Source: Deltaproteobacteria bacterium | Lineage (GTDB): Bacteria > Desulfobacterota > Binatia > UBA9968 > JAJDTQ01 | DNA: 64,000 nucleotides | Assembly: GCA_026712905.1 (NCBI GenBank) | Contig: JAPOPM010000188.1 | Span: 1-64,000 of the forward strand | Direction: 5' to 3' | In this document: piece by piece, positions 57,995 through 60,667 of the stretch | Position numbering within the stretch: position 1 is the stretch's first letter | Layout: each line of letters starts with the position of its first letter | The notes under the pieces: model-generated | What the model was told of the DNA's origin: nothing | What the model saw: only the letters and a program-made list of their open reading frames with translations | Database searches by the model: none | Program-made: the position numbers and the translations under genes

Positions 57995-58843
57995 ATGGCA
58001 CAAGCTGGCTACGCCCGCCCGGAGCTTCTCACGGAGACCGACTGGCTGGAGCAGCACCTCGACGACCCGAACATCCGCATCGTCGACTGCGACCCCTACG
58101 ACGTCTACCGCCGGGCGCACATCAAGGGCGCGGTGGGCATCCGCGTACACCACTACATCAAGCATCCGGAATACTCGACGGACCCGCGCAAGTACCCGCT
58201 GGTGGCGCCGCCCGACACGGCCAAGGAGCTCATGGAGAGCCTGGGCATCGGCGACGAGACGCACGTCGTCGCCTACGACAGCAACGGCTCGCTGTGGGCG
58301 GCGCGCCTGTGGTGGGTGCTGAACTACTACGGCCACACCAAGGTGACGGTGCTCAACGGCGGTTGGCAAAAATGGTTCGACGAAGGGCGTCCGGCGGCCC
58401 TGGACGTGCCCAAGCCCGCGACCGCGTCCTTCAACCCCAAGGCCGAGCCGGATCTGGTGTGCACCGTGGACTACGGCACGGCCAGTGTCGGCAACCCGGA
58501 CGTGGTGTTCCTCGACGTCCGCTCGGACGGTGAGTGGACCGGGGCCAACAGCCGCGGCAACAAGCGCGCCGGCCGCATACCCGGGGCCGTGCACCTGGAG
58601 TGGCTCAACTTCGTCCATGACAAGCCCTACCGGACCTTCAAGGAGGCCGGCGAACTGCGCGGCCTGCTGGTGCAGGCGGGAGTGCCACCCGATCGTGAAG
58701 TGGTCACGTATTGACAGGGAGGCATCCGTGCGGCGCACGGAGTCTTCGTCCTGACACTGCTGGGCTACGAACGGGCACGCAACTACGACGGTTCCATGGC
58801 CGAGTGGGCCAACCGCGACGACACGCCGCTCGTGCTGGAGTAA
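57995..58843 (+). CDS. Two-domain rhodanese (thiosulfate/mercaptopyruvate sulfurtransferase) with selenocysteine at the active site (UGA codon 240)
   Basis: 282 residues if the TGA at 58712-58714 is read as selenocysteine; otherwise translation stops 43 codons early. Domain 1 (about 10-140) is the inactive rhodanese repeat: LLTETDWLEQHLDDPNIRIV, ETHVVAYDSNGSLWAARLWW. Domain 2 has FLDVRSDGEWTGANSRGNKR, AGRIPGAVHLEWLNF and then the active loop VVTY-U-QGGIRAAH, where homologs have CQGGIR. The frame after UGA keeps the conserved end: GVFVLTLLGYERARNYDGSM, then AEWANRDDTPLVLE and TAA. GGGAGG precedes the ATG at 57995. Without the second part the enzyme would lose its catalytic residue. The first-choice reading is a Sec enzyme; a nonsense mutation or sequencing error is the alternative. 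Confidence 0.82.
58715..58753 (+). promoter_or_regulatory. Candidate SECIS hairpin after UGA 58712
   Basis: TCCGTGC (58725-58731) and GCACGGA (58735-58741) pair perfectly around GGC, 10 bases after the UGA. Outside an internal loop, CAGG (58715-58718) can pair with CCTG (58750-58753), making one long hairpin that starts right behind the UGA, as bacterial SECIS elements do. Judged by eye. Confidence 0.55.
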
Positions 58844-58845
58844 CT

Positions 58846-59706
58846 CTGGGCGCCGAGCTTCTAGCCCTGAGCGCGGCGGTGGCCTGGGGGTCCGAGGCGA
58901 TCCTGGTGCGCCGGGGCGCGCGCTACGCCAGCGTCGTGCTCGCCGCGCTCATGGGCTTCGTACTGAGCACGGTGGTGCTGTGGAGCGCCATCTGGCTCTT
59001 CATTCCACTGAGTCTGCTCTACACCCGCGGCACTTGGTACTTCATCATCAGCGGGCTGATCCAGCCGGCCATCGTCCGCTTTCTCCACTACACCGGCATC
59101 GTTCGCCTGGGCGCGTCGCGCGCCGGCCCGGTGCGCAGCGTGACGCCGCTGTTCGCCATCGCCATCGCCTTCAGCTTCCTCGGCGAACGGCCCGACGCCG
59201 GCGTCTACCTCGGCTCGTTCCTGAGCGTCATCGGGGTCTGGCTGACATCGAGCCGGCGCGAGGGAGAGAGCGAGTGGAAGGCGATTCACCTGGCGTATCC
59301 GCTGGGCGCGGCCTTCCTCACGGCCATCTCGCAGAACTTCCGCAAGACCGGCCTCCTGATCATGCCCAACCCCTATGTCGCCACCGCGGTCACCATCACC
59401 ACGTCGCTGGTGGTGTTCTCGTTGAGCCTAGTGGTGACGGGCCAGTTGCGCACTCTCCAGGGCGACCGGAAATGCCTGCCGTTCTACGGCACCGCCGCCG
59501 TGGTCTCGGCCACCGCGCAACTGCTGGGCTACATCGCCCTGGCCAAGGGTGACGTGTCCGTGGTGGTGCCGCTCATCAACACGAACCCGCTCTTCATCGT
59601 CCTGTTCAGCGCGCTGTTCCTTCGGGACCTGGAGACCATCAACGCCCGCGTCGCCGCCGGCGCCGTCCTTATCGTCACGGGCATCGCGCTCATCACGTAC
59701 CGCTGA
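58846..59706 (+). CDS. EamA/DMT-superfamily transporter
   Basis: About 286 residues, ten membrane segments, two EamA repeats: LGAELLALSAAVAWGSEAIL, VRLGASRAGPVRSVTPLFAI, and LIVTGIALITYR at the end. No ATG fits; the N-terminus aligns with a CTG at 58846, 3 bases after the rhodanese TAA, with GGAG at the end of the rhodanese gene as ribosome site. Translation may therefore depend on ribosomes that pass the upstream UGA. Start uncertain. Substrate unknown. Confidence 0.78.
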   Translation: MGAELLALSAAVAWGSEAILVRRGARYASVVLAALMGFVLSTVVLWSAIWLFIPLSLLYTRGTWYFIISGLIQPAIVRFLHYTGIVRLGASRAGPVRSVTPLFAIAIAFSFLGERPDAGVYLGSFLSVIGVWLTSSRREGESEWKAIHLAYPLGAAFLTAISQNFRKTGLLIMPNPYVATAVTITTSLVVFSLSLVVTGQLRTLQGDRKCLPFYGTAAVVSATAQLLGYIALAKGDVSVVVPLINTNPLFIVLFSALFLRDLETINARVAAGAVLIVTGIALITYR

Positions 59707-59785
59707 TCCGTCGGCCGTCTGTTGAAGCCGTCACCCGTCTCCGATATGTGACTACATGCACCACCACACGGGTGGAGCGGAACCC

Positions 59786-60667
59786 ATGACACTCGCAGGA
59801 AGGGAAATCGTCGTACGCCGGACGCGCGACCATCGCCGCGCCGAGGAGTGGGCGCTGGTGCTGGAGGCGGAGGGTCTGGCGCCGCGGCTGCTGCACACGT
59901 CCAGCGGTTGGATCATCTCGGTGCCGTCCCAGCACCTGGAGCGGGCGGCCACGGAGTTGTGGGCGTACGAGAGCGAGAAACTAGCCACGGAGACGGAAGA
60001 AGACCGCCCGTGGGCCGGTCGCGCTCCGTTCTACACGGGCGTCGGCGTCGCGGCGGGACTCCTGGCGTTCTTTTTCCTCGTTGCCTGGACTCAGGAATCC
60101 GTGCGCTGGATCGAGCACGGCAACGCGTCGACCGACTGGATCCTGCGCGGCCAACTGTGGCGCACGGTCACCGCCCTCACCCTGCACGGCGATTTCCCCC
60201 ACGTGGCGTCCAACGCCGTGGCCCTGGTGTTCTTCCTGACCGCGGTGTGCCGTTCTCTGGGGCCCGGGTTCGGCGCGGCGATGGTGCTGGGGGTGGGCGC
60301 GCTGGGCAACCTCTTCAACGCCTGGTTTCACGGCTTCGACCACAACTCCGTGGGTGCGTCCACCGCGGTGTTCGGCGCCCTGGGCCTGCTCGGCGCCATC
60401 GGCGTCGTCGAACGCCAGCGGCTGGGGATCCAGGGACGCCGCGCCTGGATACCGCTGGCCGCGGGGGTCGCGATCCTCGCCATGCTCGGCACCGGCGGAC
60501 CGCGCGTGGACCTGTGGGCGCACTTCTGGGGCTTCGGCGCCGGTGCCGGCGCCGGGATCTGCGCGGCCCTCTTCGTGGAGCGGCCGGAGACCGCGGCGGT
60601 TCAACTCAGGATCGGCGTGGCGGCAGCCGCGGCTGTGGTGCTGTGCTGGATCGTGGCGCTGGCGTAG
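59786..60667 (+). CDS. Rhomboid-family intramembrane serine protease
   Basis: 293 residues. N-terminal cytosolic region of about 80 residues, then six or more membrane segments. Catalytic dyad visible: S192 in NSVGASTAVFGALG and H246 in VDLWAHFWGFGAGAG; the LHGDFPHVASNAVALVFF segment matches the family HxxxHxxxN pattern with changes. The ATG at 59786 has GGAGCGG before it; an ATG at 59756 lacks a ribosome site. Cleaves membrane proteins within the bilayer; targets unknown. Confidence 0.87.
   Translation: MTLAGREIVVRRTRDHRRAEEWALVLEAEGLAPRLLHTSSGWIISVPSQHLERAATELWAYESEKLATETEEDRPWAGRAPFYTGVGVAAGLLAFFFLVAWTQESVRWIEHGNASTDWILRGQLWRTVTALTLHGDFPHVASNAVALVFFLTAVCRSLGPGFGAAMVLGVGALGNLFNAWFHGFDHNSVGASTAVFGALGLLGAIGVVERQRLGIQGRRAWIPLAAGVAILAMLGTGGPRVDLWAHFWGFGAGAGAGICAALFVERPETAAVQLRIGVAAAAAVVLCWIVALA

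Follow-up and report, generated by a model that had tools for sequence, protein, structure and literature searches.

The analysed DNA (the window, 64,000 nucleotides) encodes a rhodanese whose reading frame is interrupted once, by an in-frame TGA (Table 1). From the ATG at 57995, 239 sense codons lead to the TGA and 42 more separate it from a TAA at 58841-58843, resulting in a frame of 282 residues with no other stop when the TGA is read through. Two PF00581 rhodanese domains were recognized in the protein (Pfam, 1.3e-37), the N-terminal one being complete without the 3' part. The preliminary description had proposed that the TGA is the sole break in a two-domain rhodanese and that it stands at the sulfur-accepting Cys of the CxxxxR loop. 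Both points were borne out, as the frame is otherwise open and complete and residue 240, encoded by the UGA, matches the Cys in the catalytic loop of rhodaneses of known structure. In this loop, the UGA occupies the invariant Cys column 240 and an R is found at +5; the protein thus has the catalytic CxxxxR signature only if selenocysteine (Sec) is counted as a Cys equivalent. Annotation pipelines would cut this rhodanese short right before its active site. Directly behind the gene, on the same strand, lies an EamA-type transporter frame (58711-59706, + strand), which is followed by an ORF with a rhomboid domain (59756-60667).

Table 1. Features of the rhodanese locus, with positions in the window and the basis of each assignment.
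Feature	Position	Strand	Basis
Tandem-domain rhodanese selenoprotein gene (predicted), 282 aa with Sec240	57995..58843	+	Frame, Pfam, structure alignment, AlphaFold model
Shine-Dalgarno-like GGGAGG, 5' of the start codon	57982..57987	+	Read from sequence
UGA codon, predicted to be read as selenocysteine, at the catalytic-Cys position	58712..58714	+	TGA in 37 retrieved loci
Post-UGA sense stretch of 42 codons (catalytic loop QGGIRAAH and C-terminus)	58715..58840	+	Strong purifying selection
Predicted bacterial SECIS hairpin core, CGUGC-GGC-GCACG	58727..58739	+	Invariant in 29 distinct UGA genes; fits bSECIS model

The assignment of the catalytic position was supported by structural comparison. 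An AlphaFold model, built from relatives with Cys replacing Sec, reached a pLDDT of 95.3. Its nearest solved fold was the Thermus rhodanese 1uar (TM 0.87), and the fold matches to 1uar, 1e0c and the mycobacterial CysA/SseA rhodaneses ranged from TM 0.86 to 0.88. In the alignment with 1uar, which covers residues 5-279 of the window protein, the UGA residue coincided with the C-terminal domain's catalytic Cys ('vyCriaeRssH'). It also aligned with the catalytic Cys of Mycobacterium tuberculosis SseA (3hzu).

To determine how the UGA is distributed, we compared 80 homologous loci retrieved by scanning a single genome for each species, plus additional loci from 148 genomes of the same class. The codon in the catalytic column was TGA in 37 of the 109 aligned loci, which collapse to 29 distinct sequences and one further locus from Chloroflexota (L039); another TGA locus (L124) contains only part of the gene. 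Wherever the codon was read out in the other loci it was TGC or TGT, and all aligned non-UGA homologs had Cys in this column and none had Trp. More distant homologs nearly all carried Cys at the UGA position. Within the genus, the TGA was present in all eight genomes that have the gene, including a single-contig chromosome (G115), and one further genome, 88% complete, gave no match to the rhodanese gene. The TGA was also found in a second family of the class, designated f4 (15 complete genes and a partial one), as well as in SAR202/Dehalococcoidia Chloroflexota and in L039. Most f4 genomes contained an additional, separate match without a stop. In every TGA gene, the matched frame contained just one TGA, followed 42-44 codons later by a normal stop, and protein-level conservation past the UGA persisted down to about 53% overall identity. 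For same-genus pairs, dN in the post-UGA region was about 0.02 and dS 0.10-0.17, with dN/dS well below 1. Since synonymous divergence within the genus drops to this level from 0.56-0.74 before the UGA, and dN is so low, this stretch seems to be constrained at the protein as well as the RNA level.

These data allowed us to weigh two explanations other than recoding. The UGA could be a genuine stop yielding a functional 239-residue protein that ends before the catalytic residue and has another role. Ordinary gene calling would give exactly this product, with its N-terminal domain complete, but the downstream codons are conserved as protein in distant relatives, all of them with a proper stop, and the genome has Sec machinery (see below), making such a truncation very improbable. 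The TGA could also stem from pseudogene formation, a point mutation or a sequencing error, being either a true stop or a misread TGC/TGT. Although a TGC-to-TGA error would indeed produce a single TGA as sole interruption, the same TGA recurs in independently assembled genomes of the genus, the single-contig chromosome among them, and in the second family and Chloroflexota, and thus is not a misread. Furthermore, stops scattered through the 3' part were seen in no relative, and this part shows strong purifying selection as well as extra synonymous constraint. The conservation data refute this explanation, to which we give practically no credence.

A hairpin had previously been noticed right behind the UGA at 58725-58741, with a possible extension to 58715-58753. 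The hairpin itself, with 7 bp and a GGC loop, was confirmed by folding: the region 58718-58748 reached -19.3 kcal/mol (z -4.7), and none of 200 shuffled sequences was equally good. The extension also folds in the window, but it is unsupported as a conserved feature because, across relatives, conservation is limited to the five upper pairs (58727-58731 with 58735-58739). The published bSECIS model calls for a loop of 3-9 nt, a stem of 4-16 bp, a G in the first two loop positions and a distance of 16-37 nt from the UGA (PMC13188914). The window hairpin agrees with it, having a GGC loop (58732-58734) with G at its first position, a stem of 5-7 bp and a spacing of 17 nt. In an alignment of the 29 distinct UGA genes, a choice of codon exists at 81 columns with a conserved amino acid. 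A single codon was used in four of them, which are contiguous (+5 to +8, CGT GCG GCG CAC), and in none of the other 77. In the UGA genes, CGT represents 13% of the Arg codons and GCG 34% of the Ala codons. Because the TGA and the hairpin core were both present in 29/29 distinct UGA relatives, their combination is not due to chance. The stem being invariant, there were no informative or compensatory changes among the UGA relatives, and the structure is therefore supported by synonymous constraint and folding energy rather than by covariation. An Rfam scan of the window gave no match above threshold. In a near Cys relative (L125), the corresponding codons are CGC GCG GCT CAT and the stem is lost. 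Another Cys-encoding relative (L032:3664-3703) has kept the 5' half and the loop of the SECIS (CCGTGCGGCG) and not the 3' half, possibly a fossil of a Sec-to-Cys change, or a chance resemblance.

We also searched for the machinery of Sec incorporation, and all four genes (selA, selB, selC and selD) were present in the genome containing the window. The tRNA-Sec scored 73 bits and was called by Aragorn as tRNA-SeC with anticodon TCA, while SelA (578 bits), SelB (381 bits) and SelD (370 bits) were well over the curated cut-offs. The selA, selB and selD genes are adjacent, and selD (L018, G000:C102:16403-17329, - strand), beside selB and selA, has its own in-frame UGA (AAGUAAKLGP); the Sec system therefore serves more than one gene. 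Among the homolog genomes searched, tRNA-Sec was found in 13/13 and SelA in 12/12. Of 13 UGA-carrier genomes searched for SelB, 11 had a match above cut-off; the two others, a 1.2-Mb single-cell genome (L029) and a MAG (L039), gave none but have SelA and tRNA-Sec. Some genomes of Cys-type relatives likewise contain Sec machinery, so that its presence alone is no proof of recoding at this locus; it is permissive, not diagnostic. Read-through by a near-cognate tRNA, or a change of the code to Trp, would likewise maintain selection on the 3' part, but a different amino acid at the UGA is hardly conceivable given that the aligned non-UGA homologs have Cys and never Trp, that tRNA-Sec, SelA, SelB and SelD exist, and that the constrained hairpin is a requirement of SelB-dependent decoding.

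The same genome encodes, outside the window, a second rhodanese with a UGA (L143, G000:C199:72364-72801, - strand), which has a single domain and a signal-peptide-like start. In this type of rhodanese (L141/L143), the UGA is at the apparent catalytic position (LYUQCPRH). The matched frame contains a single TGA in 23/23 genomes of the class in which the gene was found, and all seven loci with the motif read out had TGA at this position.

The evolution of the UGA was examined with a tree of 64 proteins, which indicated at least three changes between UGA and Cys. The window genus clustered with UGA genes from SAR202/Dehalococcoidia (99/98) and not with those of f4, which belongs to its own class. 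A constraint uniting both UGA groups of the class was rejected (AU p 0.006). This supports a horizontal transfer between phyla in which the rhodanese gene moved together with its SECIS. Conversely, a constraint uniting all UGA genes except L039 was not rejected (AU p 0.089), which leaves a replacement of Sec by Cys in the nested Cys clade as a suggestion only. The lone UGA rhodanese within the Chloroflexota Cys clade (L039:3001-3813) is 85% identical to a Cys protein (L040). Given this placement and a hairpin behind its UGA that differs from that of the other UGA genes, it looks like an independent or repeated Cys-to-Sec switch, a possibility based on one MAG. The rhodanese neighbours were arylsulfotransferase-like in SAR202, enoyl-CoA hydratase in f4 and others in other lineages, with none common to the UGA-rhodanese lineages compared. 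As the neighbours differ, the gene neighbourhood was discarded as a substrate clue, and no substrate can be inferred from it.

Taken together, the window gene almost certainly codes for a selenoprotein, a two-domain rhodanese of the thiosulfate/3-mercaptopyruvate sulfurtransferase superfamily (COG2897/SseA-like) with a catalytic Sec whose UGA would be decoded in a SelB-dependent manner via the SECIS. The preliminary description had proposed such a Sec-sulfurtransferase. The conserved TGA, the sel genes and the constrained hairpin agree with it, and none of the three contrary outcomes (missing sel genes, a misread codon, scattered stops) occurred. Sequence evidence gives strong support to the site of recoding, the SECIS, the Sec machinery and the position of the catalytic residue. 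In the proposed mechanism, tRNA-Sec delivered by SelB would decode the UGA, with SelB recognising the small hairpin downstream as the bacterial SECIS. We infer that the selenoprotein is produced and that it performs sulfur-transfer chemistry on its substrate. By analogy with the family, the catalytic domain probably loads sulfane sulfur onto the Sec240 selenol as a Se-S intermediate, and the bound sulfur would then be handed to a thiol acceptor. An unusual selenenylsulfide chemistry at Sec240, as suggested earlier, may result. According to work cited in PMC10298544, a protein selenopersulfide can arise on a Cys rhodanese. Sec240 could even change the reaction, giving a selenenylsulfide-based reductase or peroxidase, or delivery of selenium instead of sulfur, and the catalytic residue could have passed from Cys to Sec, back to Cys and again to Sec with a new SECIS (L039 within Chloroflexota); we regard these two proposals, taken jointly, as rather unlikely.

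Cys-type rhodaneses, namely 1uar, 3hzu (SseA) and CysA2/CysA3 (3hwi, 3aay), resemble the window protein in fold (TM 0.86-0.88, 30-37% identity) and in the position of the catalytic residue. They differ by having Cys where the window protein would have Sec, and the loop reads CRIxER in 1uar and 3hzu compared with UQGGIR in the window protein. A known Sec-containing family, NF041203 'LYCAU', likewise carries Sec in the active loop of a rhodanese domain. However, it is short and single-domain with Sec at another position, and the window protein scores only 38.6 against its cut-off of 115. The L141/L143-type rhodanese scores 47.8 against the same cut-off. It is similar to LYCAU, except that the order of Sec and Cys is apparently reversed (UxC as opposed to CxU).

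The closest counterparts are Sec rhodaneses that are already in print, contrary to the novelty implied in the preliminary description. The 2005 study of the Sargasso Sea selenoproteome reported 'Rhodanese-related sulfurtransferase, COG2897' (SseA), with three sequences and the SECIS shown (PMC1088965). The Global Ocean Sampling paper listed eight Sec rhodanese sequences under cd01449 and one under COG2897 (PMC2398784). The family also appears in a 2022 review and, as 'rhodanese-like form 4' with the motif UxxG, in a 2026 review (PMC13188914). A limited literature search found no biochemical study of such a Sec rhodanese. Like the window protein, which we place in COG2897 from its SseA/3-mercaptopyruvate sulfurtransferase matches, the published COG2897 form has two domains, Sec replacing the active-site Cys, and a SECIS-like stem-loop right past the UGA. 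Since the window protein has UQGG, matching the UxxG motif, and the family is published, we counted it in this known selenoprotein family. The kinship with the 2005 family is drawn from domain class, Sec position and motif; published sequences of the Sec form are AACY01016424, MQG53192.1 and MCY3690685.1. The published form came from marine metagenome fragments, whereas the window member belongs to a class with relatives named Candidatus Binatia. New here are the occurrence in this class, the supported transfer between phyla, the isolated UGA in a Cys clade and the second UGA rhodanese. Whole genomes, in place of metagenome fragments, now support a rhodanese family with catalytic selenocysteine, and the family provides a clear example of nucleotide-level SECIS conservation across phyla.
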